NCBI GenBank assembly: GCA_018699955.1
Contig: JABISG010000103.1
Span: 1 to 64,000, forward strand
Source of the DNA: Planctomycetaceae bacterium
Lineage (GTDB): Bacteria; Planctomycetota; Planctomycetia; Planctomycetales; Planctomycetaceae
Length of the DNA: 64,000 nucleotides
Direction: 5' to 3'
The notes below the pieces were generated by a model. The model saw only the letters and a program-made list of their open reading frames with translations. It had not been told where the DNA came from and made no database searches. Positions 23,275-47,291 of the stretch are shown piece by piece; within the stretch, counting starts at the first letter, position 1, and each line of letters starts with the position of its first letter. The position numbers and the translations under genes were made by a program.

Positions 23275-23404
23275 AGGGGGATCTCCGTATTCGTAACAGC
23301 CAATTCTATGGGTACCGCAACCGGGGTATTCCGTGTTACCGTCGGCTGGTATATGCTGTGGGGGAAGGCGTATGTCTCCCACGTCAGTATCTACGGAGCC
23401 GTTG

Positions 23405-30353: not shown

Positions 30354-30442
30354 GCGAAGGTGATTAGGAACTCAACAAATACACGAGAGAAACCGTCCCG
30401 CACGGACTCGGAATTCTCCACTCTGGAATACAGGAAATGACA

Positions 30443-31762
30443 ATGGATCATCGCTTACGAGAAGCGATTGGCGACAAGTCGGCAACCATCGGCGTGATCG
30501 GATTGGGTTACGTTGGTCTGCCGTTGATTAGCGCCTTCGTTGCGGCCGGTTTTCGGTGTATGGGTTTTGACGTCGATCAGAAAAAGGTCGATTCGCTCAA
30601 CGCCGGTCAGAGTTACATCAAACATATCTCATCCGAAACCGTCGCCGACTGGATTTCAAACGACCATTTGGAGCCGACCTCCGATATGGCCCGTTTGAGT
30701 GAAGCGGATGTTCTGCTCATCTGCGTGCCGACACCGCTCTCGGACAGTCGCGACCCCGATCTGAGTTACGTGGAAGGGACAGCGCGGGCGATTGCGAAAA
30801 CACTTCGCCCGGGCCAGCTCGTTGTGCTGGAAAGTACGACCTATCCCACCACGACGCGCGACGTCTTGTTGCCCATTCTTCTGGAAAGCGGCCTGAAACC
30901 GGGGGAAGACTTCTTCCTCGTTTATAGCCCGGAACGCGAAGATCCGGGCAACCCGGATTATTCGGCTGCGGGAATTCCCAAGGTGGTCGGCGGCCTCGAC
31001 AAGGAAAGTTCCGAACTGGCCGAAGCATTGTACAGTCATGCCATTGTGCAAGTGGTCCCCGTCTCCAGTCCGGAAATTGCCGAGGCATGCAAGATTCTGG
31101 AGAACACATACCGCGCAGTGAATATTGCGTTGGTCAACGAACTGAAAACGCTGTTCGATCGTCTGGGAATCGACATCTGGGAAGTTGTCGATGCGGCCAA
31201 GACCAAACCGTTCGGATTCCAGCCGTTTTATCCAGGACCGGGATTGGGCGGGCATTGCATTCCCATCGATCCATTTTATTTGACGTGGTTGGCTCGGAAG
31301 CAAGGTTTGGCAACGCGGTTTATCGAACTGGCCGGCGAAGTGAATTCCCGGATGCCCGAATACGTGATTTCCAGGCTGGCAGACTTTCTGAACGAGGAGA
31401 CCAAGCCAATCCGCGGCAGCAAGATCGCGTTGTTGGGCATGGCATACAAGAAAGACGTGGACGATCCCCGCGAGAGTCCCTCGTTCGAGTTGCTCGATTT
31501 GCTGATGAAACGCGGTGCCAATGTGAGCTACAACGATCCGCACATCGCTTCGTTGCCCAAAATGCGACACTGGGATGTCCCGGAAATGACCAGTTGCGAA
31601 CTCACGCCCGAGTATCTGGCCGAACAAGATTGTGTGCTGATTGCCACCGATCACACGGCCTACGATGCCGACTTCATTGTGCAGCACTCGAAAATGGTAC
31701 TCGACACGCGCAACGCGACGATCAACGTGACCGAAGGCCGCGAGAAGATCCGGAAAGCGTGA
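30443..31762 (+). CDS. Nucleotide-sugar dehydrogenase (UDP-HexNAc 6-dehydrogenase, WbpA-like)
   Basis: About 439 residues. NAD-binding motif IGLGYVGLPL near the N-terminus, middle motif LESTTYPTTTRDVLLPIL, catalytic Cys in PGPGLGGHCIPIDPFYL (residue 272 from this start), and C-terminal LGMAYKKDVDDPRESPS. The family oxidises the C6 alcohol of UDP-GlcNAc or related sugars to the uronic acid in two NAD-dependent steps. ATG 30443 is preferred over 30437 because AGGAA lies nine rather than three bases upstream. It supplies a uronic acid that the downstream asparagine-synthase-like enzymes could amidate. Confidence 0.9.
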   Translation: MDHRLREAIGDKSATIGVIGLGYVGLPLISAFVAAGFRCMGFDVDQKKVDSLNAGQSYIKHISSETVADWISNDHLEPTSDMARLSEADVLLICVPTPLSDSRDPDLSYVEGTARAIAKTLRPGQLVVLESTTYPTTTRDVLLPILLESGLKPGEDFFLVYSPEREDPGNPDYSAAGIPKVVGGLDKESSELAEALYSHAIVQVVPVSSPEIAEACKILENTYRAVNIALVNELKTLFDRLGIDIWEVVDAAKTKPFGFQPFYPGPGLGGHCIPIDPFYLTWLARKQGLATRFIELAGEVNSRMPEYVISRLADFLNEETKPIRGSKIALLGMAYKKDVDDPRESPSFELLDLLMKRGANVSYNDPHIASLPKMRHWDVPEMTSCELTPEYLAEQDCVLIATDHTAYDADFIVQHSKMVLDTRNATINVTEGREKIRKA

Positions 31763-31897
31763 TCTGACAACGGTGCTTCATTGTGAAAGTCACGTGACAC
31801 GGGGCTCGCATCGTCGATACCAAACGGCACGCGTGCGCGATGTCACCGTCGTTGGCTCACGTCCGCAGTTCGGTACTGTCTCGCTTGGCGATCCGCA

Positions 31898-31958
31898 TAG
31901 TAACCCGAAGCGTAAGCGAGGACCTAACGTGCTCCCTCGCTTACGCTTCGGGTTACTA
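31898..31958. repeat. Perfect 24-bp inverted repeat with AAGCGTAAGCGAGG core
   Basis: Arms 31898-31921 and 31935-31958 are exact reverse complements (core AACCCGAAGCGTAAGCGAGG) around a 13-base loop. It is the second copy of the dispersed element at 9940-10010. It lies in the 366-base spacer (31763-32128) between the dehydrogenase and the epimerase, which otherwise holds only the epimerase leader. Confidence 0.85.
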
Positions 31959-32128
31959 TCGCTGGAGCCATTGATTGCAAATCTTCCCGAGTTGAGCCAC
32001 GATCCCAAACCCGATTCACACCCGCTACAGCCGGGTTGACATGATCGCGGAAGACGGCATATAAGGCCGCTGGCTCTTGGAGAGCTGCGCAAACTAAGTT
32101 GAATTCCGTCCGCCAAAGGAGTGAAGCG

Positions 32129-33133
32129 ATGGATTTGAGGGGGAAAAAGCTGATGGTGATCGGCGGTGCCGGTCTCATTGGAAGCCATGTGGTTGATGAA
32201 TTGCTGAAGACCGACGTCGGCGAAATCATCATCTACGATAACTTCTTCCGCGGCAGCATGGACAATATTGCAACCGCGATGGAAGACCCGCGCGTGAGTG
32301 TTTCGCCACACGGAGGCGACATTCTACAACGCGATGTTCTCGAACGGGCGATGGAGGGCGTTGATGGCGTTTTTCATTTGGCCGCACTGTGGATTCTGCA
32401 GTGCCACGAATACCCGGACACCGCCTTCGATGTGAACGTCCGCGGCACATACAATGTTGCCATGGCTGCGATCAAACAAAACGTCCAACGCGTTATCTAT
32501 TCTTCTTCCGCATCGGTCTACGGCGACGCCCTGGAAATCCCGATGACCGAAGATCACGCATACAACAATTTCACGTTCTATGGTGCGTCGAAGATCGCCG
32601 GAGAGCACTTCTTCAAGAGTCTGGGAAGCCGCTACGATCTGAACTGGGCCGGGTTGAGGTACATGAACGTGTACGGCCCACGGCAAGATTACAAGGGTGC
32701 CTACATTGCCGTCATGCATAAGATCCTCGACTGCATTGAGCGCGGTGACCGACCGGTTGTCTACGGCGACGGCAGCCAGAAGTACGACTTCGTTCACGTG
32801 ACCGACGTCGCGCGATCCAACGTCCTGGCGATGCAATCCGACGCGTCCGGAAAATGCTACAACGTCGGCCGCGGCATCGGCACCACGATCAAGGAATTGA
32901 CGGAGTTGTTGCTGCGACTGAAAGGCAGCGATCTCGACATCCGTTACGAACCAGCCGGCACGACCTTCGTTACCAATCGAATTGGTTGTCCGAAAGCTGC
33001 CGCAGAGGACCTCGGGTTCGAGTGGACCGTTGAGCTCGACGCCGGCATGCAGAGCCTGATTAACTGGCGTTGCCAGGATAGCGCCGGCCTGGACGCCAAG
33101 CGGAAAATGACGGGTGGTGTTCGTGCCGCTTAG
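32129..33133 (+). CDS. NAD-dependent epimerase/dehydratase (extended SDR, UDP-sugar epimerase type)
   Basis: 334 residues. Rossmann motif GGAGLIGSH (12-20), the LAALWIL segment, SSSASVYG (125-132) and catalytic Tyr151/Lys155 in FYGASKIAGEHFF. LRYMNVYGPRQDYKGAYIAVM and DFVHVTDVA are typical of UDP-glucose/UDP-GlcNAc 4-epimerase-like SDRs. ATG 32129 has AGGAG 8 bases upstream; a TTG at 32099 is rejected. Likely converts the locus's UDP-sugar between epimers. A hairpin follows at 33171. Confidence 0.87.
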   Translation: MDLRGKKLMVIGGAGLIGSHVVDELLKTDVGEIIIYDNFFRGSMDNIATAMEDPRVSVSPHGGDILQRDVLERAMEGVDGVFHLAALWILQCHEYPDTAFDVNVRGTYNVAMAAIKQNVQRVIYSSSASVYGDALEIPMTEDHAYNNFTFYGASKIAGEHFFKSLGSRYDLNWAGLRYMNVYGPRQDYKGAYIAVMHKILDCIERGDRPVVYGDGSQKYDFVHVTDVARSNVLAMQSDASGKCYNVGRGIGTTIKELTELLLRLKGSDLDIRYEPAGTTFVTNRIGCPKAAAEDLGFEWTVELDAGMQSLINWRCQDSAGLDAKRKMTGGVRAA

Positions 33134-33204: not shown

Positions 33205-33318
33205 TGGGTTTGGTGTTGGGTGTCGCTGCTCCTCCTTCATGTGGCAAGAGAATTCACGCCACGTTGTGATTGCGTTGCTTCAACACGGTCTTGAACTTTC
33301 CCACGATTGACGTGTCCT

Positions 33319-35334
33319 ATGTGCGGTATTGCCGGAATCGTCAGCCTTGAATCCCGTCCCGTTGAGCCGCGGGGAATCAAGCGGATGTGTGATCAGATCG
33401 CCCATCGTGGCCCCGACGATGCCGGCTACGTCATGTTTCGCACCGGCGTGCGAAATGTCGGCGACGGGGGCAGTTGGTCGGAATTTGTCGATGCCGAGTT
33501 TCGCAACGTCAACGAGCATCTGCCGGTTTTTGGCGACGGCTATTTCCAGGACGTGGCGGGTAGCACACAATTCAGCGTAGCACTCGGGCACCGTCGACTA
33601 TCGATCATCGATCTGAGTCACTATGGGCACCAACCCATGGCGAGTTCCGATTGCCGGTTTTGGATCACTTACAACGGAGAGATTTACAACTTCCAGGAAT
33701 TGCGAGCCGATTTAGAGCGCGATGGTTATCAATTTCGTTCCCGCAGCGACACCGAAGTGATTCTTCACCTTTGGCACCGATACGGTGAAAAAGCCGTTGA
33801 AATGCTGGACGGGATGTTTGCCTTTGCAATTTACGACCGCCTCGAAAATCGCTTGACGTTGGCACGAGATCGATTTGGCGTTAAGCCGCTGTACTACGCA
33901 GCCGGCGATGGTTTTTTTCTGTTCGCCAGTGAGATCAAGGCGATTCTTGCCTCGGGTCACGTGAAGGCACAACTGGCCCCCGAACAGCTTGTGGAGTACC
34001 TGTCGTTCCAGAACTTGTATGGCGAGGAGACTTTGTTTGAAGGTGTGAAGCTTCTGCAGCCGGGTGAATGTCTCACCGTGATTCCGGGTACCCGTCGCGT
34101 TCCGGAGAGCCGTAGCTATCACGCCGGGTTTCCCGAGGCGGAACCGGAATTGGCCGACGATCCCGAAGCAACGGAACGGCTTTCGGAGTTGTTCGCCGCC
34201 GCCGTCCGCCGACAACTTGTGGGTGATGTCGATGTGGGATCGTACCTGTCCGGCGGAATGGATAGCGGCTCGATTGTCGCCGTTGCCGGCCGTTCGATCC
34301 CGCGATTGCTCACATTCACATGTGGTTTTGATCTGACCAACGTGAATGGGCTTGAACAAGGTTTCGACGAACGCCGGCTCTCGGAGAAGCTGTCTTATCT
34401 GCTGCAAACCGAGCACTACGACGTTGTGCTGCATGCGGGCGACATGCCTGCCGCGATGGACAAATTGACGTGGCACATGGACGACCCACGTGTCGGCATG
34501 TGCCATCAGAATTGGTACGTCGCCAAACTCTCAAGCAAGTTTGTCAAAGTATGCCTGGCGGGTGCGGGAGGCGATGAATTGTTCGGCGGATATCCCTGGC
34601 GATATTTGCAGGGTCTCGGCGCGCAAACGTTTGGACAATTCGATGACGCGTACTTCCGGTTCTGGAATCGACTCGTTCCGCCTGCCGAACTTCCTCGATT
34701 GTTTGATCCGAGTCTGGCCAAACTCAAAGATGTTCCACGCGAGCGTTTTGATCGCGTCATGAAGGGCGCCCCAGAGTGGCAGGACAATCTCTCGACGTGC
34801 GACAACATGCTGCGTCGCTCTTTGTATTTTGAACAGCGCACGTTCTTACAAGGGTTCTTGATTGTTGAAGACCGCATCAGCATGGCGCACAGCCTGGAAA
34901 CGCGGGTCCCCTTCCTCGACAACGCGCTCGCCGACTACGCGTCACGTTTGCCGCCATCGATGAAAGTCGATACCGCCGCTCTCGCTCAGCACGATCCCTC
35001 GCAGCACCTTGTCACCACCGATGGGAAGCGCGTGCTGCGTGAGGCGATGGAGTCGTTCCTGCCCGCCGAATTCACACGGCAACAGAAGCAGGGTTTTTCT
35101 TCGCCGGACGAAAACTGGTATCGCGGTCCATCGATGCAGTACATCAAGGACGTCCTGTTCGACCGCCGCACGACGGAGCGTCCCTGGTTCGACCAATCCT
35201 ACGTCCAACAGAAGTTGCAGGAGCACTTCCAAGGCAAATCGAATCACCGGCTATTGATCTGGTCGCTGCTCAGCCTGGAATTGATGCAGCGGCATTACAC
35301 GGATTCGGCCGTGCCATTGGAGAAGGCCGCATGA
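33319..35334 (+). CDS. Asparagine synthase-like glutamine amidotransferase (first copy)
   Basis: 671 residues. MCGIAG start exposes the class II glutaminase nucleophile Cys2; HRGPDDAGY, LGHRRLSIIDLS, ITYNGEIYNF and DGMFAFAIYD follow. The synthetase domain has the pyrophosphate loop YLSGGMDSGS and later GAGGDELFGGYPWR and RISMAHSLETRVPFLDN. The true start is ATG 33319 because Cys must be residue 2. In O-antigen loci such proteins (WbpS type) amidate uronic acids rather than aspartate, which fits the dehydrogenase upstream. The stop overlaps the ABC permease start by four bases (ATGA). Confidence 0.92.
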   Translation: MCGIAGIVSLESRPVEPRGIKRMCDQIAHRGPDDAGYVMFRTGVRNVGDGGSWSEFVDAEFRNVNEHLPVFGDGYFQDVAGSTQFSVALGHRRLSIIDLSHYGHQPMASSDCRFWITYNGEIYNFQELRADLERDGYQFRSRSDTEVILHLWHRYGEKAVEMLDGMFAFAIYDRLENRLTLARDRFGVKPLYYAAGDGFFLFASEIKAILASGHVKAQLAPEQLVEYLSFQNLYGEETLFEGVKLLQPGECLTVIPGTRRVPESRSYHAGFPEAEPELADDPEATERLSELFAAAVRRQLVGDVDVGSYLSGGMDSGSIVAVAGRSIPRLLTFTCGFDLTNVNGLEQGFDERRLSEKLSYLLQTEHYDVVLHAGDMPAAMDKLTWHMDDPRVGMCHQNWYVAKLSSKFVKVCLAGAGGDELFGGYPWRYLQGLGAQTFGQFDDAYFRFWNRLVPPAELPRLFDPSLAKLKDVPRERFDRVMKGAPEWQDNLSTCDNMLRRSLYFEQRTFLQGFLIVEDRISMAHSLETRVPFLDNALADYASRLPPSMKVDTAALAQHDPSQHLVTTDGKRVLREAMESFLPAEFTRQQKQGFSSPDENWYRGPSMQYIKDVLFDRRTTERPWFDQSYVQQKLQEHFQGKSNHRLLIWSLLSLELMQRHYTDSAVPLEKAA

Positions 35335-36161
35335 TGACACTCGCAAAACGGCAATTCTCCTCGGTGCGCGAAATGGTCGCGAACCTTGTGCAGAACCGAC
35401 ATCTGACCTGGGAGATGGCCAAGCGGGATATCACCGATCGCTATGCCGGTCAGGTTGCCGGGTCGCTGTGGGCGATTGGACACCCACTGGTGATGATGGG
35501 GATCTACATTTTCATCTTCGCCTTCGTGTTCAAGGTCCGCGTTGGCGGTACGCGGGAACTTCCACTCGATTACACCGCCTATTTGCTTTCCGGACTGATT
35601 CCATGGATGGCCCTTCAGGAAGCGATGACGAAAGGTGCGACCTCCATCACGGGCAATGCCTCGCTGGTCAAACAAGTGGTGTTTCCGGTCGAAATCCTTC
35701 CGGTGAAGGGCATCCTTGCTTCTATGATTACGCAGCTGATTGCCACGGCAGTCCTGCTGATTTACACGCTCGTTTCTCACGGCAGCTTGTTCTGGAGTCA
35801 CCTGTTGCTGCCTGTACTGTTCCTGCTGCAGTTTCTCGGCATGACCGGCATCTGCCTGTTGTTGGCTTCAATCGGCACGTATTTACGGGACATCAAGGAC
35901 GTTGTGCAAGTCACTTGCGTGGCCGGCATGTATGTGATGCCGATCTTCTACCTGCCATCTTCTGTGCCTGCCCCACTACGGCCGTTGTTGTATCTGAATC
36001 CCTTCAGCTACCTGGCCTGGTGCTACCAGGACGTCTGCTATTACGGCCGCTTCGAACACCCGTGGGCCTGGCCCGTGTTGGCGATTCTGTCGCTCTCAAC
36101 CTTCCTCATCGGGTCGCGCGTTTTTCGGACGCTCAAACAGAACTTCGGGAGCGTACTTTGA
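35331..36161 (+). CDS. wzm: ABC-2 polysaccharide export permease (Wzm-like)
   Basis: 276 residues with six predicted membrane segments. The N-terminus ends with WEMAKRDITDRYAGQVAGSLWAIGHPL, the signature of Wzm/TagG-type permeases, and the C-terminus has LYLNPFSYLAWCYQDVCYYG. With the ATP-binding protein encoded immediately after (overlapping start TTGA), it should export undecaprenyl-linked polysaccharide across the inner membrane. Confidence 0.92.
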   Translation: MMTLAKRQFSSVREMVANLVQNRHLTWEMAKRDITDRYAGQVAGSLWAIGHPLVMMGIYIFIFAFVFKVRVGGTRELPLDYTAYLLSGLIPWMALQEAMTKGATSITGNASLVKQVVFPVEILPVKGILASMITQLIATAVLLIYTLVSHGSLFWSHLLLPVLFLLQFLGMTGICLLLASIGTYLRDIKDVVQVTCVAGMYVMPIFYLPSSVPAPLRPLLYLNPFSYLAWCYQDVCYYGRFEHPWAWPVLAILSLSTFLIGSRVFRTLKQNFGSVL

Positions 36162-37441
36162 CAGCCACGATTCCCCCGGCCATTTCGGTCGCCAACTTAT
36201 CCAAAGCCTACCGCATTTACGGCAGGCCTGCGGACATGCTGTTGGAGTTGGTGACGCGCAAGCCGCGGCATCGAGAGTTCCATGCGTTGAGCGGCGTTTC
36301 GTTCGAGGTGCCTCGTGGACAAGTTGTTGGGGTCATTGGCAGCAATGGCGCGGGAAAGAGCACCCTGCTGAAAATTCTGGCCGGAACGCTCGACTGGAAC
36401 AGCGGAGAGATCAACGTTGCCGGAAAGATTTCGGCCATCCTGGAACTCGGGACGGGATTCCACCTCGATTACACCGGCCGTGAGAACATCTACATGGGGG
36501 GCATGTGCCTCGGGCTGACACGCAAACAAATTGACGAGCGCCTCGAATGGATCATCGACTTCAGTGAACTTCGCGACGTGATCGATCAGCAGTTTCGCAC
36601 CTATTCAAGTGGCATGAAGGCCAGACTGACATTCGCCACCGCCATCAGCATCGACCCCGACATTTTCATCGTCGATGAAGCGCTTGCGGCCGGCGACCAG
36701 TTTTTCATATCGAAGTGCATCAAGCGGATCGAAGAAATCTGCCGGAGCGGGGCAACGGTACTGTTCGTTTCGCACTCTCTGGCGATGGTCGAACGCTTTT
36801 GCCAGCGGGTGATTTGGATCGAAAACGGCCGAATCCATGCCGACGGCGACGTGCACGAAATCTGCAAAGCGTACGAACTACGTTGCCTGTCGCAGGAGCA
36901 GCAGTTGATGCAGGATCGCTACGACGACGATGCAGGAGCGGACGAGACCAGCACGCTGTCGAAGGCCGAAGACAAAGACATTGGCACGGGCGAGATGCGG
37001 ATCAACACCTTCGACGTACTCGACGCCGACCAGCAAACGACGCGCACACTAACCGTCGGCTGCCCTTACACAATTCGCCTCGGTGTCGATAGCAACATCA
37101 GCTGCAAAGAGGTCGGTTTCAGTCTTCAGCTGCTCACAGATGATGGTCGGGTGGCGTTCTCGACGTCATCGTTCGCCTACATCGACGACGAAGGAATTGA
37201 GCGCACGCAAGGCGTCGATATTCACGAGGGACATAACGACGTCGACATCGACATCTCGCGGATACTGGTCGGTGCGGGACGTTACACGGTTATCGTTGGT
37301 GCTGCACCACATCAAAACACCAATTCGTATGACGAATTCTTCGATATTAAGTGGAAGCGCTGGTCGGTAAGCGTTCAGCGCGAAGGCCTCACGCAGAGTA
37401 CCGTCTTTGAACAACCGATTCGCGGTTGGAGGTGCGCATAG
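36158..37441 (+). CDS. wzt: ABC transporter ATPase with C-terminal cargo-binding domain (Wzt-like)
   Basis: 427 residues. Walker A GSNGAGKST (61-69), signature YSSGMKARL (149-157), Walker B IFIVDEAL (169-176), H-loop VSHS. GREN and the SAILELGTGFHLDYTGREN segment are typical of polysaccharide exporters. After about residue 270 a beta-rich domain (FDVLDADQQTTRTLTVGCPY, ISRILVGAGRYTVIVGAAPH) matches the Wzt C-terminal carbohydrate-binding module, which recognises the modified non-reducing end of the glycan. TTG 36158 overlaps the permease stop; the longer open frame upstream lies in the permease gene. Confidence 0.9.
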   Translation: MTATIPPAISVANLSKAYRIYGRPADMLLELVTRKPRHREFHALSGVSFEVPRGQVVGVIGSNGAGKSTLLKILAGTLDWNSGEINVAGKISAILELGTGFHLDYTGRENIYMGGMCLGLTRKQIDERLEWIIDFSELRDVIDQQFRTYSSGMKARLTFATAISIDPDIFIVDEALAAGDQFFISKCIKRIEEICRSGATVLFVSHSLAMVERFCQRVIWIENGRIHADGDVHEICKAYELRCLSQEQQLMQDRYDDDAGADETSTLSKAEDKDIGTGEMRINTFDVLDADQQTTRTLTVGCPYTIRLGVDSNISCKEVGFSLQLLTDDGRVAFSTSSFAYIDDEGIERTQGVDIHEGHNDVDIDISRILVGAGRYTVIVGAAPHQNTNSYDEFFDIKWKRWSVSVQREGLTQSTVFEQPIRGWRCA

Positions 37442-38298
37442 CTTTCATGGTTGCGACGCTTGCTCTCTGCAACGATATCGACTTCGCCGACTGGGACACT
37501 TACCGGGCGGCCCATCATGAGCTGCGCGAAGAGTTCGGAATTGATGCCGAAGATTCCTTCTGGCTGTTCGACCCTGCCGGTTCAGACATGGCGTTGTTCA
37601 AATCGTCGTTGAACGAAAAAGGCCCAAGGCACGACGAATTACTGGCGGACATCCAGATCGGCCGTCTCAACATTCTGCATGCTGCAGGAAACTTCGATTT
37701 CGCAACCACCGATCAGCGTCCCACCCGCCGCATGATCGCCGACGGCCTGGACTATCTCGCCGAGCATGCCCGTGTGCCGGAAGTCTGGACGAATCACGGC
37801 GATACCGGAAACCTGCAGAACATTGGCTGGCCGGGCTGCACATACCAGTGCGGCGACAATCCGGCAGCCGACTCCTATGTTCTCGACTTGCTGCTGCAAC
37901 ACGGTGTGCGGTACTTCTGGACCGACCGCGACACGACGAACGACTTTGTCGAATCGCCAATCGTCCACTCGGAACAAACGCGGGCCGGTTACCACATCGA
38001 TTGTTTCACCCGTTATCGGGGAGCACTCAAGAAGGCTCCCGATGCTGAAACATTGTTTCAACAACTCACTGACGAAAACCTCGACCAGTTAATCGACGAA
38101 GAGAACTCCGTGGTGGTGTACCAGCATTGGTGCGTCCACCGCGAAACGGACGGACGCCCGGTGTGTGCGGGACGGCCGGTTTTCCCTGAAAACAGTTGGC
38201 GGTCGTTGAAGCGGCTGTCCGAATATCGCGACCACGGCAAGGTGGTCATTTCTCGCGTTGCCGACCTACTCGAAACCTGCATGCCTGAAAAGGCGTGA
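37432..38298 (+). CDS. Polysaccharide deacetylase-like protein of O-antigen loci
   Basis: About 288 residues. EDSFWLFDPAG, RLNILHAAGNFDF and WTNHGDTGNLQNIG resemble polysaccharide-deacetylase-like proteins found in O-antigen and capsule loci, with His/Asp residues that could bind a metal; the NodB motifs are not clear-cut, so activity is unproven. The start is uncertain: GTG 37432 gives a MRIAFMVATLAL N-terminus and overlaps wzt by 10 bases; TTG 37426 and ATG 37447 are alternatives. It may remove an acetyl group to expose an amine for formylation, but that is inference. Confidence 0.6.
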   Translation: MRIAFMVATLALCNDIDFADWDTYRAAHHELREEFGIDAEDSFWLFDPAGSDMALFKSSLNEKGPRHDELLADIQIGRLNILHAAGNFDFATTDQRPTRRMIADGLDYLAEHARVPEVWTNHGDTGNLQNIGWPGCTYQCGDNPAADSYVLDLLLQHGVRYFWTDRDTTNDFVESPIVHSEQTRAGYHIDCFTRYRGALKKAPDAETLFQQLTDENLDQLIDEENSVVVYQHWCVHRETDGRPVCAGRPVFPENSWRSLKRLSEYRDHGKVVISRVADLLETCMPEKA

Positions 38299-38313: not shown

Positions 38314-39756
38314 ATGAGCGCCAAGATCGATTTTGGCCCCCGCGAAAATAGCAGCCGACAAATTGCGGCTGACAATGGAATTGAAATACTCGATGAAGGC
38401 GGAAGGTTACCCGCCGATGCCGCTGAGCGGTTGCAGAACTCAACCCGTGGAGTGCTGTACGTTCCTGATCGTGGCGTTCCGATACACGAAGACTCGTTTG
38501 CTCGCATCATCAAGACGATGGCGCAAACCGAGCCGACGCATCTTGACCCGCACATTCCGGTAGCAACCGAACTGGGGCTTCCCAAGTACGAGCCGCTGGC
38601 ATACTGGTGTCCTGGCAAGACTGCCACCAGTCGTGGTCTGCTCTCGCGACTGTGGAACCGAAATTTCCGCCTCGATTCGACAGCGTTCGCACCCGACGAA
38701 GACAACAGCACGGCGTTAATCGAAACGACGCCGGAAGAGCAGGTGCATTACTTCGCCACAAACTTCCCAGTGCTGTGTCCGCAGCCGATTCAGGTCAGCC
38801 CCGTTGTCAGCAATTCGTGCAACCTGAAATGCATCATGTGTCCGTACCACAGCCCTGACATCCGGCCCAAGCACACGACAGGGTTCTTTGATGAAAAGAG
38901 CCAGATGAGTTGGGAAACGATGATGCGTATCGCCGAGGAATGCGGCGAACGCAAAATCGGCCTGAAGGTGGGAAATATCGAGGAACCGTTGTTGCACCCG
39001 CGGATGATTGACTTCGTCCGCGAAGCTCGCAAACGCGGAGTCCCGTCATTCCACATCACCTCCAACGGACTGCCGCTCGACGAAGCGCGGCTCAATGAAT
39101 TATACGATGCCGGATTGACGAGTCTTTATATCAGCGTCGATGCCGCACGCCACGACACCTACAAGCGCGTCCGTGGTGCATCGCTGGACAAGGTGCAGGC
39201 GAATATTCGCATGGCCGTCCGAATTCGCGACGAACGAAACGTCCCGTGTACCGTCAGGACGTCGTTCGTCAAGAACAAGGGGGTGTCGCTGGAAGAAGTC
39301 GATGAGTTCCGCGAACGCTGGGTCGCTGAAGCGGATGGCGTCATCCTGTACAACCTCGCCGAATATGAAGATGGCAACTCACACTTCGACGAAGTCAACG
39401 AGTTTGTCCAGGAACGAATGAAGTCGGCTCAGGGGCGGTGGCCTTGCCTGAATCCGTTCCAGGAAATCTATGTCTTGCCCGACAGCCGCGTTTATTACTG
39501 CTGCGAAACGGTCTCCAAACTTGCCTTCGAAACGTTGCCTTCCAACGGCGACTACGAACGGCAATCGCTGACCGATATCTGGATCGGAGAATCGTTCACC
39601 AAGCTTCGCAAAGATTTGATTCTGAACCAATTGAGCGACTGGAGTGCGTGCATCGACTGTGGCATCTGGATGGCCCACGCCATGAAAGTCACTGAGGCCG
39701 ATGATCGGATCACGACACAGAACATGATCACCGAAATTGTCGATCGTAAGAAATAG
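38314..39756 (+). CDS. Radical SAM/SPASM-domain enzyme
   Basis: 480 residues. A non-standard N-terminal region of about 150 residues precedes the radical SAM core, whose cluster motif CNLKCIMC has Cys169, Cys173 and Cys176. ITSNGLPLDEARLNELYDAGL, ISVDAARHDTYKRVRG and the C-terminal SPASM cysteines (RWPCLNPFQEIYVLPDSRVYYCC; CIDCGIW) are evident. SPASM enzymes modify peptides or small molecules with an auxiliary iron-sulphur cluster. Here it is embedded in a glycan locus, 15 bases after the deacetylase-like gene and ahead of a methyltransferase-transglutaminase fusion. Substrate unknown: a sugar, aglycone or peptide are all possible. Confidence 0.87.
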   Translation: MSAKIDFGPRENSSRQIAADNGIEILDEGGRLPADAAERLQNSTRGVLYVPDRGVPIHEDSFARIIKTMAQTEPTHLDPHIPVATELGLPKYEPLAYWCPGKTATSRGLLSRLWNRNFRLDSTAFAPDEDNSTALIETTPEEQVHYFATNFPVLCPQPIQVSPVVSNSCNLKCIMCPYHSPDIRPKHTTGFFDEKSQMSWETMMRIAEECGERKIGLKVGNIEEPLLHPRMIDFVREARKRGVPSFHITSNGLPLDEARLNELYDAGLTSLYISVDAARHDTYKRVRGASLDKVQANIRMAVRIRDERNVPCTVRTSFVKNKGVSLEEVDEFRERWVAEADGVILYNLAEYEDGNSHFDEVNEFVQERMKSAQGRWPCLNPFQEIYVLPDSRVYYCCETVSKLAFETLPSNGDYERQSLTDIWIGESFTKLRKDLILNQLSDWSACIDCGIWMAHAMKVTEADDRITTQNMITEIVDRKK

Positions 39757-39808
39757 CGGCGACGTTGGTGGATCGAGGCGGACGGTCATCAAGTTTGAGG
39801 ATGTGTTG

Positions 39809-41914
39809 ATGTCAATTGTCGAATCAAATCAGCGGATCGAGGTCGACTTTCCGTCGGTGGATGACGTTCTGCAGACGGTTTCCGGTTCGGAGGTCGATCA
39901 CGAGTTTCTGGAAATGGAACTTGGGCCGGGCCTCGATTACTACGTTCGCCGAATCGACCGGCTGATGCTCGCCGGCGACCGAGTACTCGATGCGGGGTGT
40001 GGTGTCGGCCAATGGTCGGCTGCACTCGCACAACGATTTCGCCACGTTGAAGCGATTGATCTCAAAGAAAATCGACTCGAAGTTGCCCGCTATCTGTCGC
40101 AACACCATCGCATCGACAACATGACAGTTCGTTGCGGATCGATTGACGATTTGCCATACGAAGACACATCGTTCGACGCGGTGTTTTGTTACGGCGTGAT
40201 CATGTTCACGCCCATTCAACAGGTGTTGGCTGAATTCCATCGCGTGATGAAACCGGGGGGGCGTGTGTACGTCTGCCTGAACGCAGGCGGCTGGAGCCGA
40301 TACCTGATTGACGAGCGAAGCAAAACACATCCCGCAGTGGCCGATGTCGGACGCATGACGTTGTACAAGACTTACTGGCACCGCGCAATCAACGCGGGAT
40401 TTGCCGAGTCGCTGCAATCCGGGGCTGGGCAGCAACTGGTTATGCCGAAGTTGATTCTGCGAAGTGTGCTCGCCTGGGCCCGGCTTAGCAGAATCAACCC
40501 AGACAAACTGGCAACGGTGCTGCTAAAAAGCAGTCCGCAGGGCCGGCTGTTGTATGAATCTGTGAAACAAGACTGCGGGCCGGACCTGGTCAAACGCCTC
40601 ATGGTTGATGTCATCGCATGCCTGAAGGGTGGCGATGTCCGCGAAGGATTCGGTCCGGAGCGCGCATACAATCCTGATGACATCAACGATCTTGTGGCAG
40701 GTGCTGGTTTCTCGGAATTCGACTGGGCATCTGAAGGCGACCTGGTGTACGACTGGCAGCAGCCGGCGTGCAAGCCTCGGTACGACGGATACTTTAACAA
40801 TCGCCTTTCGGTCTGGGAATTTCAGGCGGCCAAACCCGATTGGCAGGCGATCCCAGTTTCGGCCGATTTTCATATTCGCCGGGCTGACGATGCCGCTAGC
40901 CATCCGATCTTCTTCGACCAAACAGCGCAGCCGCGGGTATCGAATACCACACAATTGAGTTATCCGCCTGAATTGTTTGCTTTTGCACAACGGCTTGCGA
41001 AAGACAGCGGCGGCACCAATTACCTGGCTGCGCTTGCACGGCAGATCTGCCGCGACGCTGAGGACGATACGGGCCGCGCATGCTGCATTATTCGGTTCGT
41101 GCAGAAAGCGTTGTTTCGCGATCCAGTCTGCCAGCCACTCGAGCAGGGGGGAAGCGTGCCGGACGCAGCGACCATTCTGTTTTGCGCGCGGGGCCGTTGT
41201 GGACACGCTGCCGAACTGGTTAGCACCCTCGCACAAGTTGTCGGCATCGAATCGCGAATCACACAGTTGCCACAGCACGTCATCGCCGAACTCAGCATCG
41301 AGGGCCGATGGGTTATTGCCGACGCCGATGCCTTCAAGAATGGTGTCGTTCCGTTGAACCGTGACGATCGACTGCTCTCGATGAAAGACCTGAAAGACAA
41401 CCCGTATCAGATCGATCGATTCAGTTCGACCGGCCTCTACATTCGACCCAACTCTTCATACACACAAGGGGTCTTTGGGACACAGGTTCGCGGCTATGTC
41501 GATGCCCTCGAGCCCGATGACCGGGGCTTTGTTTCCAGACTCTACTCAGAAGAATCCATAGGTTTCCCGCCGTCACTGCCGGAGATTCTGAGATTTGAAT
41601 TGGCCGACGACGACCGTTTTGAACTCGAATGGGCCGAGTCGATTGTTCGGGAAGGCGAACTCCGCGGATACCGCGTTCGCGTCGGCACGACTTCATGCGG
41701 TTGGACATACCAGGCGCTTCCCAACGACGAAAGCTTATTGAACGAAACGCTCGACAATGTGCTTTCGGTTGAGACGTTGGAAACCTCGGTATGTGGAACG
41801 GTTCCTAAGGGAACCGGCGAGTTGTTCGCCTCGATTACCCCTTTCAGCAGCCGGATTGATCTCGAACCGGAAACATTTTTCCGCCCCTCTGAGGAGGCCC
41901 GCTGTGAGCGTTAA
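39809..41914 (+). CDS. SAM methyltransferase-transglutaminase-like fusion
   Basis: 701 residues. The N-terminal class I methyltransferase (about 45-320) has motif I VLDAGCGVGQW (59-69), motif II-like VEAIDLKENRLE and FDAVFCYGVIMF. After a linker a transglutaminase-like cysteine protease fold (about 380-570) shows the Cys-His-Asp triad: Cys464 in RGRCGHAAEL, His490 in LPQHVIAEL, Asp505 in WVIADADAF. A further about 150-residue region ends with a Ser/Thr-rich beta-like stretch. The start ATG 39809 has GAGGA upstream. Known transglutaminase-like proteins cross-link, hydrolyse or ligate amides; a methyltransferase fusion in a polysaccharide locus is unusual. The next gene starts 11 bases before its stop. 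Confidence 0.82.
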   Translation: MSIVESNQRIEVDFPSVDDVLQTVSGSEVDHEFLEMELGPGLDYYVRRIDRLMLAGDRVLDAGCGVGQWSAALAQRFRHVEAIDLKENRLEVARYLSQHHRIDNMTVRCGSIDDLPYEDTSFDAVFCYGVIMFTPIQQVLAEFHRVMKPGGRVYVCLNAGGWSRYLIDERSKTHPAVADVGRMTLYKTYWHRAINAGFAESLQSGAGQQLVMPKLILRSVLAWARLSRINPDKLATVLLKSSPQGRLLYESVKQDCGPDLVKRLMVDVIACLKGGDVREGFGPERAYNPDDINDLVAGAGFSEFDWASEGDLVYDWQQPACKPRYDGYFNNRLSVWEFQAAKPDWQAIPVSADFHIRRADDAASHPIFFDQTAQPRVSNTTQLSYPPELFAFAQRLAKDSGGTNYLAALARQICRDAEDDTGRACCIIRFVQKALFRDPVCQPLEQGGSVPDAATILFCARGRCGHAAELVSTLAQVVGIESRITQLPQHVIAELSIEGRWVIADADAFKNGVVPLNRDDRLLSMKDLKDNPYQIDRFSSTGLYIRPNSSYTQGVFGTQVRGYVDALEPDDRGFVSRLYSEESIGFPPSLPEILRFELADDDRFELEWAESIVREGELRGYRVRVGTTSCGWTYQALPNDESLLNETLDNVLSVETLETSVCGTVPKGTGELFASITPFSSRIDLEPETFFRPSEEARCER

Positions 41915-43421
41915 GCGTGTCGCAAAACACTTACTGCGACCGGTCAGCGGCCGAATTTTGGATGCCGTGGCAAGCCGTGTCCGTAATCGGCTGGGATTCC
42001 ACGGAATGACCTCCGAAGAATCCAGCAATAATTGCGCGGGCTGCGCAGCACGGGCTGATCTCGACATTCTGGCGGCCGCCCGATCCATCGCAGCAGGCGG
42101 GGATCAACGGGTCACGCTGCCAACAGAACCAACCGGCGGCTCGACTGAGAGACCGATTCAACTTGGCTTCTGCGGCAACATGGCTAACAACGCATACAAT
42201 TTCGTTAAAGCCTTGAGACGATTGGGACACTCGGCAGAATTGGTCGTCGAAGACGGATACCTTGACGCCTTCATCATGAACCGTCCTTTCTGGGAGGATG
42301 TTGAAGTTGAGTGCGACGACTACGAGCAAGCGGCCACGTTTGAGAAAGAGTGGCGGCAACCGCACTTCGTTCGCCGCGTCGAATACGATCAGGAATTGCA
42401 GGCCCGCTTTCAGCACCGGCAGTCGGCTATTCCTGAAGTCCAAAAGCTCTACCGGGAGACATTTGGGCTGGAACTCCCGACCGACCGCGCACTGGTCCTT
42501 GCGCAGTCGATGGGACACTGGCCCAGCTTGGTCGCATTGAGCCGCTATGACGTGATACAACTTTCCGGTTCCGCCATCAGCTTGGGGCCGTTTTGTCCCA
42601 AGCCGTATGTTGTCTTCCCCACCGGCAGCGACCTGTTTGTGAGTCCGTTTCAGGAAACGTTGTTCGGCTTGCTGATGCGTGCCGGCTACCGTGGCGCAGC
42701 TCACGTGCTGATTTGCGAAACAAATTATCCTGCATATCTTGACCGGTTGGCGATGACCTGCCCGCGCAGCTTCGCCCCGATGATGATCGACACCGTCACC
42801 TATGCACCGGGTGACAGTCAGCAGGTCCGCCAACAGTGGCGCGAACGCTCCGGCGGCGAACGGTTCCTTTACTCCGTCTGCCGACAGGCGTGGCAGTGGA
42901 AAGGAAACGACAGATTGCTGCGGGCCTTTGCAGAATTTACCAGCAACGGCAACTCCGACTGGCGACTTGTGCTGCAACAATGGGGACCCGATGTCGAGCG
43001 ATCACAACAATTGATCGGCGAACTCGGGCTGGAGAACCGTGTCCTCTACGAAACGCTGTGTTCCAAGCCGGTTCTCAGACGCCGACAGCAAGCGGCCGAC
43101 GTTGTTGCCGATCAGTTTGTGATGGAAGGCTACGGAACATCGGTGCTGGAATCGATGGCCGCTTCCAAGCCCGTTTTGATGCGGCCGGTCGATGACATCG
43201 CCGCACAAAACTTTCGGTGGCGCCCACCGTTTCTCGGCGCAACAACTGTGGAAGAAATCACACACGTGCTGCAAACCACGTTGCACGACGATGCGCTGCG
43301 TTCTGCCGGTGAAGAGAGCCTGCGATGGTTACAGGAACATCACGGATACGAATCTGTGTCACAGATTTATCTCGACGCGATGGTTGGTGCCACGCGTGGT
43401 ACAGAGAAGATTGCTGCCTGA
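41904..43421 (+). CDS. GT-B glycosyltransferase, GNMANNAY type (copy 1)
   Basis: 505 residues. A variable N-terminal about 80 residues is followed by IQLGFCGNMANNAYNFVKAL, the donor/acceptor GT-B N-terminal domain, and a C-terminal domain with ADQFVMEGYGTSVLESMAASKPVLMRPV typical of GT4-like nucleotide-sugar binding. GTG 41904 is chosen because GAGGAGG lies seven bases upstream. Its N-terminal block resembles the gene at 45507 (GNIANNAYLN), so the two are paralogues within the locus. Donor and acceptor unknown. Confidence 0.8.
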   Translation: MSVKRVAKHLLRPVSGRILDAVASRVRNRLGFHGMTSEESSNNCAGCAARADLDILAAARSIAAGGDQRVTLPTEPTGGSTERPIQLGFCGNMANNAYNFVKALRRLGHSAELVVEDGYLDAFIMNRPFWEDVEVECDDYEQAATFEKEWRQPHFVRRVEYDQELQARFQHRQSAIPEVQKLYRETFGLELPTDRALVLAQSMGHWPSLVALSRYDVIQLSGSAISLGPFCPKPYVVFPTGSDLFVSPFQETLFGLLMRAGYRGAAHVLICETNYPAYLDRLAMTCPRSFAPMMIDTVTYAPGDSQQVRQQWRERSGGERFLYSVCRQAWQWKGNDRLLRAFAEFTSNGNSDWRLVLQQWGPDVERSQQLIGELGLENRVLYETLCSKPVLRRRQQAADVVADQFVMEGYGTSVLESMAASKPVLMRPVDDIAAQNFRWRPPFLGATTVEEITHVLQTTLHDDALRSAGEESLRWLQEHHGYESVSQIYLDAMVGATRGTEKIAA

Positions 43422-43461: not shown

Positions 43462-44253
43462 ATGCGAGTTTTCTTGATGGGAGCGACAAAGTTCAGTCGT
43501 CGCTGTCTTGATGCTGTCCTGGAATCGGGGCAAGAGTTTTGCGGCTGCGCTGCCACGCCGGAGCATTTCGACATCAGCTACGCGCCCGAGGGTGTGCGCA
43601 ACGTCAACTACTGCAACTTTGTGGAAGTCGCTGGCGAGTTCGGCGTCCCCTGTATTGCCTACGACCGCAAGAACGTCAATTCATTCGTCGATGAGGTGCG
43701 AGAATTGCAGCCGGACCTGTTGCTCGTCGCAGGCTGGTACTACATCGTGCCGAAGAAACTCCGCGATGTCGCGCCCCAAGGGGCCGTCGGTTTGCATGGA
43801 AGTCTACTGCCGCAGTTTCGTGGCGGTGCGCCGCTGGTGTGGACCATGATCCACGGCGAATCGCACGGCGGAATGACACTATTCTACCTCGATGACGGCG
43901 TCGATACCGGTGATATCGTTGGGCAACAGAGCTTTCCCATCGACGAGAACGAGACCATCGCCGATGCACTGGTCAGCTCCGAGAACGCCGCCGTCACTTT
44001 ACTTTTGGAATGCCTCCCACAACTGGCCGACGATTCGGCGCCGCGGATTTCACAGAGTGAGGCGCAAGCCAGCGAGTTCCCCCAGCGCTGCCCCGCTGAC
44101 GGTGAAATCGATTGGACGAAACCAGCTGCAGACATCGGCAATTTCATTCGCGCTCAGACGCGTCCCTATCCGGGAGCCTTCTTGCGAATCAATGGCAAGA
44201 AGGTCGTCATCTGGGATGCAGACATTTCTGAACTTGAGGAGGACTGTGCATGA
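43462..44253 (+). CDS. Sugar N-formyltransferase-like protein (methionyl-tRNA formyltransferase family)
   Basis: 263 residues. Fold motifs LHGSLLPQFRGGAPLVWTMI and YLDDGVDTGDIVGQ match 10-formyltetrahydrofolate-dependent formyltransferases. Catalytic His112 and Asp148 are present, but the Asn two residues before the His in ArnA and Fmt is Gly110 here. Proteins of this kind in O-antigen loci N-formylate amino sugars. Its stop overlaps the aminotransferase start (ATGA), coupling amine formation with formylation. Confidence 0.82.
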   Translation: MRVFLMGATKFSRRCLDAVLESGQEFCGCAATPEHFDISYAPEGVRNVNYCNFVEVAGEFGVPCIAYDRKNVNSFVDEVRELQPDLLLVAGWYYIVPKKLRDVAPQGAVGLHGSLLPQFRGGAPLVWTMIHGESHGGMTLFYLDDGVDTGDIVGQQSFPIDENETIADALVSSENAAVTLLLECLPQLADDSAPRISQSEAQASEFPQRCPADGEIDWTKPAADIGNFIRAQTRPYPGAFLRINGKKVVIWDADISELEEDCA

Positions 44254-45434
44254 GCGGGACACCATCGAAAAATCTGGCAATTACCTTTCCGCAGTTCGAC
44301 GAACGGGAACTGGAGAACGTCAAGGCTTGCCTCGAATCCAAATGGGTGACTCAAGGTCCGTTTTCTGCTGAGTTTGAGCGACGTTTCGCCGACCGACACG
44401 AACTGAACTCGGCGCTGACGACGACCTCGTGTACGGCGGCTTTGCACCTCGCCTGTCTGGCGCTCGAACTCGGCCCGGACGATGAAGTGATTGTGCCAGC
44501 CTTTACGTGGATCACCTCAGCAAACTGTGCGGAGTACGTCGGAGCAAAAGTCGTCTTCGCCGACATCGACCTTGAAACATTCAATTTCGATCCAGAGGCG
44601 TTAAAGGCTGCCATCACACCGCGAACCCGAGCGATTGTGGCCGTCCACCTGTTCGGGCTGGCCGCTCCGATGGATGAGATCTTGGCGATTACTGCTGAAC
44701 GAGGCATTCACGTCATCGAAGATGCGGCCTGTGCTGTCGGATCGACCTACCGGGGTAAGCCGGTGGGCGGGTTGGGCGACATTGGTTGTTTCTCCTTCCA
44801 TCCGCGCAAGGTCATTACCACGGGCGAGGGCGGCATGGTCACGACGAACGATGCCGAATTGGCAAACCGCATCGGCTGCCTGCGAAATCACGGTGCCAGC
44901 CAGCCGCCCGGTCCGCAATCTGCACCGGGCCGACCATACAGCATGGGTGCCTTCGAAACGCTCGGCTTCAATTTGCGCATGTCCGATATTCAGGCGGCGG
45001 TCGGCGTGGCACAGATGGACAAACTCGATGGACTGCTTGATCAGCGACGCCTGAGGGCGGAACGCTACACGCAATTGCTGACCGCGCGTGAGATGAACGA
45101 TTTGAAACCACCGACGGCTCCGGATGGTTGCGGACATAGCTACCAGTCGTACGTCGTCCGCCTGCGGGTTGGCGGCCAATTACGCCGCAATCAAGTTATG
45201 GACTGCCTCGCCGACGAAGGAATTCAAACGCGGCCCGGAACACACGCCGTTCATCGGCTCGGTTACTATGTCAACAAATACGACATTCGAGCCGAGGACT
45301 TTCCCAACGCCAAAACGGCCGAAGAGACAACCATCACGCTTCCAATCTTTCCCGGCATGACAGACGCCGACCAGGACCGCGTTGTTGATTCATTGCGGCA
45401 CGCACTGCACAAATCGGGGCAGGCGGCCGCGTAG
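44250..45434 (+). CDS. DegT/DnrJ/EryC1 family sugar aminotransferase
   Basis: 394 residues, PLP-dependent. PLP Lys187 in FSFHPRKVITTGEGG, VHLFGLAAPMDEI, EDAACAVGSTYRGKPVGGLGD, and a C-terminal substrate-binding part. Enzymes of this type transaminate keto-sugars to amino sugars (for example 3- or 4-amino-deoxy sugars). Overlaps the formyltransferase by four bases; together they would yield an N-formylated amino sugar from a keto sugar supplied by an SDR. Confidence 0.92.
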   Translation: MSGTPSKNLAITFPQFDERELENVKACLESKWVTQGPFSAEFERRFADRHELNSALTTTSCTAALHLACLALELGPDDEVIVPAFTWITSANCAEYVGAKVVFADIDLETFNFDPEALKAAITPRTRAIVAVHLFGLAAPMDEILAITAERGIHVIEDAACAVGSTYRGKPVGGLGDIGCFSFHPRKVITTGEGGMVTTNDAELANRIGCLRNHGASQPPGPQSAPGRPYSMGAFETLGFNLRMSDIQAAVGVAQMDKLDGLLDQRRLRAERYTQLLTAREMNDLKPPTAPDGCGHSYQSYVVRLRVGGQLRRNQVMDCLADEGIQTRPGTHAVHRLGYYVNKYDIRAEDFPNAKTAEETTITLPIFPGMTDADQDRVVDSLRHALHKSGQAAA

Positions 45435-45506
45435 TTTCGCCCCCAGACGCTCAAAACCGGGTTGATTCTGATCGCACAACAAATTCTGATTTCCCCCGAG
45501 AATACG

Positions 45507-47291
45507 ATGACCGAGTCGAAGCCAGAATCCGAACAGCCCGACGGACCGGCGGATCACACTTGCAAAGCAGCCGAGCGCTGGCTGGCAGAATTCCGCGAAC
45601 GGACTGGCCGGGCTCCCAAGGTCTTGCATATCGGAAACATCGCGAACAACGCCTACCTCAACTCCAAGCTACTGCGCGAGGCGGGGCTGCAGTGCGACGT
45701 CATTTGTTACGATTACTTGCACATCATGGGCTGCCCCGAATGGGAAGAAGCGGACTTCGAGGGCGGCTATCTCGATGATTTCTTTCCGGCGTGGGAACGT
45801 GTCAAGATGGGCGGCTACAAACGTCCGCACTGGTTCGCGCAGGGTCGGCAAGACACTTGCATCCGGTACTTGACGGCCGCGCGTCAGGGCCGCGCCAAAA
45901 CTGCCCGCCTGCTACGGATGCGTTTGATTCTCGAATGCCGGTTGATTTCCTGGATGGGACGCAAAGGCCTGTTACCGTTGGCTGCAAAAGTACGGCGGGC
46001 CGTTGGACTGCTACCACGATTGTTGTGGCGCGCGCCCAAGAAGTTGGTGTGTCGCGGCCTAAAGCAGTTGTTGTGGCCTCAGGGACGGCCCGTCCCCGAG
46101 GCACCAGACACCCTCGATGAATCAGAGCAACAGCCACAAGTTCACTGCGAACGATCCGCCAGTCAATCCTCGTCGGAAGAAACGCAACCACTCGTCAAAG
46201 AACGATTACGGCCGACCAGTGAAGAACCGTTCGACCGACGCGCGGCTGCGTTGGTCGAGTGCTTCAAGCAGGTGTTTCCCGAGCGTGAGGATGCCCTCAT
46301 TTCCGAAGAGTTAATGCAGTACAGTTCCGTTGTCGATAAGTGGTCGGAGCTGTTTGATTCGTATGACGTGATTGTCGGGTATTCGACCGATCCGCTGTTG
46401 CCGTTGCTTGCAGGCAATCGGCCCTACCTTGCCTTCGAGCACGGCACCATCCGCAATATTCCGTTTCAACCGACGACACAGGGGCGGCTGTGTGCCATCT
46501 CCTATCGGCTCGCCGATGTCAGTCTGATTACCAATTGCGACAATTACCGTTCGGCAGAGCGGTTACGGCTGCCAAATTATCGGTTCATTCCGCATCCGGT
46601 TAACGAAAGCCCCGTGCCACGTGAGGCGGCCGCTAAGATACGCGAATCTCTTGAAGCCGAATTCGATTGCGACTTCGTCGTCTTTCATCCGTCCCGTCAG
46701 CACTGGGAACCGGATGTCCGTCATCCCGACTGGGAGAAGGGCAACGACATTTTCTTTCGCGGCCTGGCGCGATTCATCACCGAGACCAACTCGCGAGCGA
46801 TGTGCGTTTGCGTGGCCTGGGGAAATTCTCTCGAACAGTCGAAGCAACTGCTGACCGACCTCGGCATCGCTGATCGGGTGAAATGGATCAAGCCACAATC
46901 AAGCCGCCAGATGGTGAGCTACATCCAGGCCAGCGACGTAACGGCAGACCAGTTCTATCTCGGAGCTTTCGGTAGCACGCTCCCCAAGGCGATGCTCCAC
47001 GGCTGTCCCGGCATGTTATACATCGACGCCGAACTGCATGACTGGGCCTTTCCTGAGATTCCTCCTGTCTTGAACACAAGAACCTCGGAAGATGTCTTCT
47101 CATCGCTCGAGAGGCTCTATCTTTCGGTCGAAGAACGAGAACGCCTGGCACGGTTAGGACGCGAATGGTACTTGAAGTATCATTCGAATCAGGTGATCGC
47201 CCGTGGCTTCGTCGAAGCGATTCGCGATGCAATTCAACCGGTAGAGCAACCTGCCGACCAGTCGGAACCGCTTAATCGCGAGGCCGCTTAA
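45507..47291 (+). CDS. GT-B glycosyltransferase, GNIANNAY type (copy 2)
   Basis: 594 residues. VLHIGNIANNAYLNSKLLRE and CDVICYDYLHIMG match the N-terminal domain of the 41904 gene; the C-terminal GT-B domain has VFHPSRQHWEPD and ADQFYLGAFGSTLPKAMLHGCPGMLYI. A linker of about 100 residues between them is unusually Arg/Pro/Ser-rich. ATG 45507 is chosen as the first ATG; an upstream TTG (45462) is possible. The stop abuts the next gene's ATG (TAAATG). Confidence 0.78.
   Translation: MTESKPESEQPDGPADHTCKAAERWLAEFRERTGRAPKVLHIGNIANNAYLNSKLLREAGLQCDVICYDYLHIMGCPEWEEADFEGGYLDDFFPAWERVKMGGYKRPHWFAQGRQDTCIRYLTAARQGRAKTARLLRMRLILECRLISWMGRKGLLPLAAKVRRAVGLLPRLLWRAPKKLVCRGLKQLLWPQGRPVPEAPDTLDESEQQPQVHCERSASQSSSEETQPLVKERLRPTSEEPFDRRAAALVECFKQVFPEREDALISEELMQYSSVVDKWSELFDSYDVIVGYSTDPLLPLLAGNRPYLAFEHGTIRNIPFQPTTQGRLCAISYRLADVSLITNCDNYRSAERLRLPNYRFIPHPVNESPVPREAAAKIRESLEAEFDCDFVVFHPSRQHWEPDVRHPDWEKGNDIFFRGLARFITETNSRAMCVCVAWGNSLEQSKQLLTDLGIADRVKWIKPQSSRQMVSYIQASDVTADQFYLGAFGSTLPKAMLHGCPGMLYIDAELHDWAFPEIPPVLNTRTSEDVFSSLERLYLSVEERERLARLGREWYLKYHSNQVIARGFVEAIRDAIQPVEQPADQSEPLNREAA

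Follow-up and report, generated by a model that had tools for sequence, protein, structure and literature searches.

The window analysed in this study, 64,000 nucleotides of a Planctomycetaceae bacterium (assembly GCA_018699955.1, contig JABISG010000103.1, positions 1 to 64,000), contains a surface-polysaccharide export locus in which one open reading frame joins a methyltransferase to a transglutaminase-like domain. The locus begins with a glycosyltransferase gene (29085), followed by genes for a UDP-sugar 6-dehydrogenase and an NAD-dependent sugar epimerase/dehydratase (30437-33133, +), which are assigned to uronic acid supply, an asparagine-synthase-like glutamine amidotransferase (33307-35334, +), and an ABC exporter pair (35331-37441, +) consisting of a Wzm-like permease (35331-36161) and a Wzt-like ATPase. 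The Wzt-like protein carries a carbohydrate-binding C-terminal domain (Wzt_C, 36.5 bits against a cut-off of 30.4), as expected of the partner of a WbdD-type enzyme. An unannotated gene (37426-38298, +), a radical SAM/SPASM gene (38314-39756, +), and the fusion gene (39809-41914, +) complete this part of the locus. Beyond the fusion lie three genes with glycosyltransferase-like Pfam matches (two of them weak), a sugar formyltransferase and a DegT/PseC-like sugar aminotransferase (43462-45434, +) assigned to an N-formyl amino sugar, and a second epimerase, while the end of the locus is marked by an unclassified glycosyltransferase-like protein (49555) and a second asparagine-synthase-like amidotransferase on the opposite strand (50723-52705, -). 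The radical SAM/SPASM gene directly upstream of the fusion and the two asparagine-synthase-like genes had been recognised in the initial annotation and were recovered here. The fusion gene sits in a coding block with the exporter, uronic-acid, amidotransferase, aminotransferase, and formyltransferase genes, and no methyltransferase other than its own was recognised in the locus. Judged by its known families, the gene set is presumably capable of producing amidated uronic acids and N-formyl amino sugars.

Several neighbouring proteins are unusual in their own right. The radical SAM/SPASM protein matches both Pfam families (Radical_SAM, 1.8e-16; SPASM, 7e-8) and reached the cut-off of none of the curated subfamilies against which it was compared; about 150 additional N-terminal residues lie outside its matches to relatives. 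The 290-residue product of 37426-38298 gave no significant match in Pfam, NCBIfam, or the PDB, and motifs such as ALCNDIDF and TNHGD may relate it to distant polysaccharide deacetylases. Two of the glycosyltransferase-like proteins (41757-43421 and 45462-47291, both +) are paralogues with 26% identity and a common GNxANNAY N-terminal motif, and 170 genomes of the same family contain almost no close relatives of them.

The fusion gene encodes 701 residues without interruption, and its coordinates, frame, and start are as initially annotated: an ATG at 39809 preceded by GAGG at 39797-39800, and a stop codon at 41914. Its product comprises a methyltransferase, a helical insert, a transglutaminase-like core, and a fibronectin-III-like (FN3-like) domain. 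The methyltransferase core (residues about 54-165; 39968-40303, +) matches Pfam Methyltransf_11 at residues 60-154 (E 9.6e-23, 81.1 bits against a cut-off of 21.2), and motif I, VLDAGCGVGQW, begins at residue 59; this glycine-rich motif and the Methyltransf_11/25 profile place it among the class I SAM-dependent methyltransferases. Modelling of the core was confident, with most of it above pLDDT 90, and Foldseek matched the model to TleD, RebM, and MitM. The N-terminal domain has its class I fold in common with small-molecule O-methyltransferases, RebM and AtmM included; however, the likeness is limited to the core, and those proteins are unfused enzymes acting on small-molecule natural products. 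A PADLOC match to mad2 was rejected as evidence of a defence function because it reflects generic methyltransferase similarity. The following segment (residues 166-355; 40304-40873, +) gave no match in the Pfam scan and is predicted to be mostly helical, with pLDDT mostly below 50. No signal peptide or transmembrane stretch was found in a search of the protein for hydrophobic segments (best 19-residue mean hydropathy 1.34). Overall, confidence in the modelling is modest (mean pLDDT 57-62); the full-length model was built on alignment A2, in which the methyltransferase tails are partly misplaced, because a joint alignment of both domain sets (A3) misaligned the transglutaminase rows.

The transglutaminase-like core (residues about 378-540; 40940-41428, +) matches Pfam Transglut_core at residues 408-506 (E 5.6e-7; score 30.2 bits, cut-off 23; 34.7 bits in the genome scan), which places it in the transglutaminase-like superfamily (PF01841). 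Both Pfam matches exceed their curated cut-offs, and the original proposal of a methyltransferase and a transglutaminase-like domain on a single polypeptide is borne out. The catalytic triad had also been located exactly: the predicted nucleophile Cys464 in the motif GRCGHAAEL (41198-41200, +), His490 (41276-41278, +), and Asp505 (41321-41323, +) are invariant in 13 transglutaminase-like sequences, most of which are just 23-32% identical to the fusion. In the full model, C464 lies at the start of helix 463-477, H490 at the start of strand 490-497, and D505 after strand 500-504. Judged by topology, this fits the canonical order, in which Cys opens a helix and His and Asp sit on neighbouring strands, and it is compatible with the triad clustering that the initial annotation called for.

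In the model of the C-terminal half, the transglutaminase core is predicted with confidence (block pLDDT mostly 70-93) and leads into an FN3-like beta-sandwich; Foldseek matched this half to 3isr (a putative cysteine protease), 3kd4, the transglutaminase 4xz7, mouse and yeast peptide:N-glycanase, LapG, and many FN3 domains. When a family profile was compared with the PDB, the nearest relatives of solved structure were 3isr again (E 1.9e-9) and the peptide:N-glycanases 1x3w and 3esw (E about 2e-5), the alignment pairing GRCG with GRCGEW; the peptide:N-glycanase match comes from the family profile, and no peptide:N-glycanase was among the 60 matches listed for the fusion sequence alone (P0001). 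The FN3-like domain (residues about 592-686; 41582-41866, +), which the initial annotation had overlooked, is indicated by profile matches to FN3 structures in the PDB, by the Foldseek results, and by a weak Pfam fn3 match in a relative (L055).

The closest relatives found are about 700-750 residues long, come from Planctomycetota, Latescibacterota, and Gemmatimonadota, and contain the same transglutaminase/FN3 module; the module boundary in the fusion is the point at which homology to them begins. Their N-terminal half, of about 400 residues, differs from that of the fusion, has no Pfam matches, and is propeller-like by eye only. Among the loci retrieved, L055/L104 (a Planctomycetota contig), L056/L106, L101-L103, and L146-L151 represent a conserved, cytosolic-looking family with an intact triad; the one member tested against NCBIfam (L055) matched no named family. 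A smaller protein from Gemmataceae (L057/L105) combines the module with a hydrophobic N-terminus that would serve as a membrane anchor. All of these proteins share the Cys-His-Asp core and FN3-like end and can be aligned with the fusion across the whole module, but identity is 25-30% and their N-terminal part is either not a methyltransferase or is a membrane anchor. No recognisable glycan locus surrounds the nearest relatives.

In the search for a second fusion, the transglutaminase/FN3 half was used as a single-sequence query against the class (398 genomes) and the phylum (392 genomes); the search also covered the class again by profile, 64 genomes near a Gemmatimonadota relative, and plasmids, which gave no matches. 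No second methyltransferase fusion was found in these roughly 850 genomes or in a single pattern scan of 85,000 species genomes, which was of limited sensitivity, and a search of 99 relatives for full-length homologues returned matches to methyltransferase cores only. None of the 95 open reading frames with a transglutaminase domain in the fetched loci (some genes were fetched repeatedly) also encoded a methyltransferase. Neighbouring genes were likewise used as anchors for related loci: the best radical SAM homologues in the class were 26-30% identical, with no transglutaminase in the stretches fetched around them, and the neighbouring glycosyltransferase led to no convincing related locus. 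In another planctomycete (L161, 8644-10113, -), a small transglutaminase-like gene has a methyltransferase gene directly after it; this pair was rejected as a separate-gene version of the fusion, being absent from 10 further loci with small transglutaminase-like genes and lying outside a glycan locus. Because the relatives carry other N-termini and 0/95 frames include a methyltransferase, the transglutaminase/FN3 half is, on sequence comparison, a mobile module exchanged between proteins in at least three phyla, and its pairing with a methyltransferase looks recent or rare. The combination is new to the genomes searched and both domains are well known; the fusion is a new combination of known parts rather than a new kind of system.

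There are several potential explanations for the presence of such a protein in a polysaccharide locus. We tentatively favour, with a probability of roughly 0.4, a cytosolic bifunctional enzyme that tailors the glycan of an ABC-transporter-dependent surface polysaccharide pathway before export. The enzyme is placed in the cytosol because it depends on SAM and shows no hydrophobic signal for export. Here we infer that both halves are active and share a substrate, as well as what that substrate is. The N-terminal half would methylate a hydroxyl or amino group of a sugar, on a nucleotide sugar or a lipid-linked chain and possibly at the chain end. The C-terminal half would act as a transglutaminase-fold thiol enzyme: an amide in the same sugar or glycan (a uronamide or N-acyl group) would acylate Cys464 to give an acyl-enzyme, and the acyl group would pass either to water, as in an amidase of the peptide:N-glycanase kind, or to an amine. 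The FN3-like domain may serve for binding or docking. Acyl transfer from, or hydrolysis of, a sugar amide is favoured because the family profile matches peptide:N-glycanases, which hydrolyse the amide joining sugar and asparagine (PMC9102325). Those enzymes (NGLY1/Png1) have in common with the fusion a transglutaminase core, a Cys-His-Asp triad, the GRCG motif, and a cytosolic location (PMC9102325). However, the likeness holds at the family-profile level only, and the fusion contains no PUB, PAW, or Rad23 parts and, in its 701 residues, no CxxC motif, against the two zinc-binding ones of peptide:N-glycanase. With no second fusion in the genomes searched, a shared substrate has no conserved gene neighbourhood to draw on. 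By analogy with known terminators, the Wzt_C domain in the locus makes a methylated cap possible. It is improbable, at the same time, that the full combination holds, namely that a methyltransferase and a peptide:N-glycanase-like amidase or transacylase, here first found on one polypeptide, remodel an amide-bearing sugar in the cytosol and set the methylated cap that tells the exporter a chain is finished.

The main alternative, although somewhat unlikely, is that the transglutaminase-like half works as a protease or regulator on some protein of the machinery for export or assembly, as has been proposed for HvyA of Caulobacter crescentus, with the methyltransferase fusion bringing this control to the assembly complex. 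This precedent, HvyA, is a transglutaminase homologue of the BTLCP family encoded in a capsule export locus; its catalytic triad is needed for capsule control, and its C192, H226, and D241 mutants are non-functional (PMC4241560). It also leaves without support the earlier statement that surface-polysaccharide loci have no normal need of such cysteine enzymes. LapG and putative cysteine proteases among the Foldseek matches point the same way, and an FN3-like domain would suit protein contacts. HvyA and LapG are periplasmic, however, whereas the fusion requires SAM, has no hydrophobic N-terminus for export, and would act in the cytosol; HvyA is moreover an unfused negative regulator of capsulation, and the fusion matches Transglut_core with no Pfam match to BTLCP, the family of HvyA and LapG.

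A more doubtful explanation is that the C-terminal module is non-catalytic or a scaffold and the methyltransferase alone caps or decorates the glycan, in a role like that of WbdD-type terminators read by Wzt_C. In E. coli O9a, a multi-module methyltransferase caps the chain and the carbohydrate-binding module of Wzt reads the cap (PMC3482155), and a similar multi-module enzyme is found in K. pneumoniae O7 (PMC11231755). Such terminators are usual for this export pathway, and the fusion resembles WbdD and O7 ORF6 in being a multi-module methyltransferase of an ABC-exporter pathway with Wzt (PMC3482155, PMC11231755); its methyltransferase is also the sole one recognised in the locus and lies near a Wzt with a carbohydrate-binding domain. 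However, the terminators have a kinase where the fusion has the transglutaminase module, and their coiled-coil ruler is not evident in the fusion (none was seen in a crude heptad scan, and the longest proline-free stretch lies within the methyltransferase core). A complete triad that is invariant among relatives is also unlike a dead enzyme.

According to the initial annotation, the glycan would carry an amide or peptide-like substituent that the transglutaminase-like domain builds or cross-links and that is subsequently methylated. Of this proposal, the bifunctional protein, the intact triad, the export locus, and the plausibility of amide chemistry stand, cross-linking and a peptide-like substituent are not supported, and as a whole it is now very unlikely. 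Acyl transfer is within the reach of the transglutaminase fold, genes for amino sugars and amidotransferases lie nearby, and the amide synthase GdmF is among the weak matches to the family profile (E 0.27). However, a putative cysteine protease and amidases are the closest relatives with solved structures, and the family profile and model fall closest to cysteine proteases, peptide:N-glycanase, and LapG, with nothing specific for cross-linking. In the proteins of the locus that were scanned, nothing was recognised that would activate peptides or amino acids. The two asparagine-synthase-like genes and the radical SAM gene had been taken to indicate a peptide-like substituent, but amides have ordinary sources in the locus as amidated uronic acids and N-formyl amino sugars, and because the amidotransferase and formyltransferase genes already account for them, no transglutaminase domain is needed. 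Finally, although the fusion is known from one genome, a draft assembly of 173 contigs, and some risk of an artefact remains for that reason and because no second instance was found, an artefactual join is unlikely and the accidental joining of two unrelated genes can be given hardly any weight, because the single open frame runs across a tidy module boundary, codon-position GC is level along the entire frame including the junction, and no Shine-Dalgarno sequence and start were found within it ahead of the second module.

Amides in cytosolic polysaccharide assembly are usually ascribed to ATP-dependent amidotransferases or to acyl- or formyltransferases. If the cysteine domain of the fusion acts on the glycan, as the favoured tailoring role would require, a thiol acyl-transfer amidase would enter this stage of assembly, and planctomycetes, whose surface glycans are little studied, would be seen to recombine modules for such modifications. 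If it does not act on the glycan, the protein would still be instructive as an example of a mobile transglutaminase/FN3 module distributed across at least three phyla. Elsewhere in the window, the gene at 23333-26554 (+) encodes another multidomain protein, in which HEAT repeats accompany the fusion of a protein kinase to a formylglycine-generating-enzyme/sulfatase-modifying domain.
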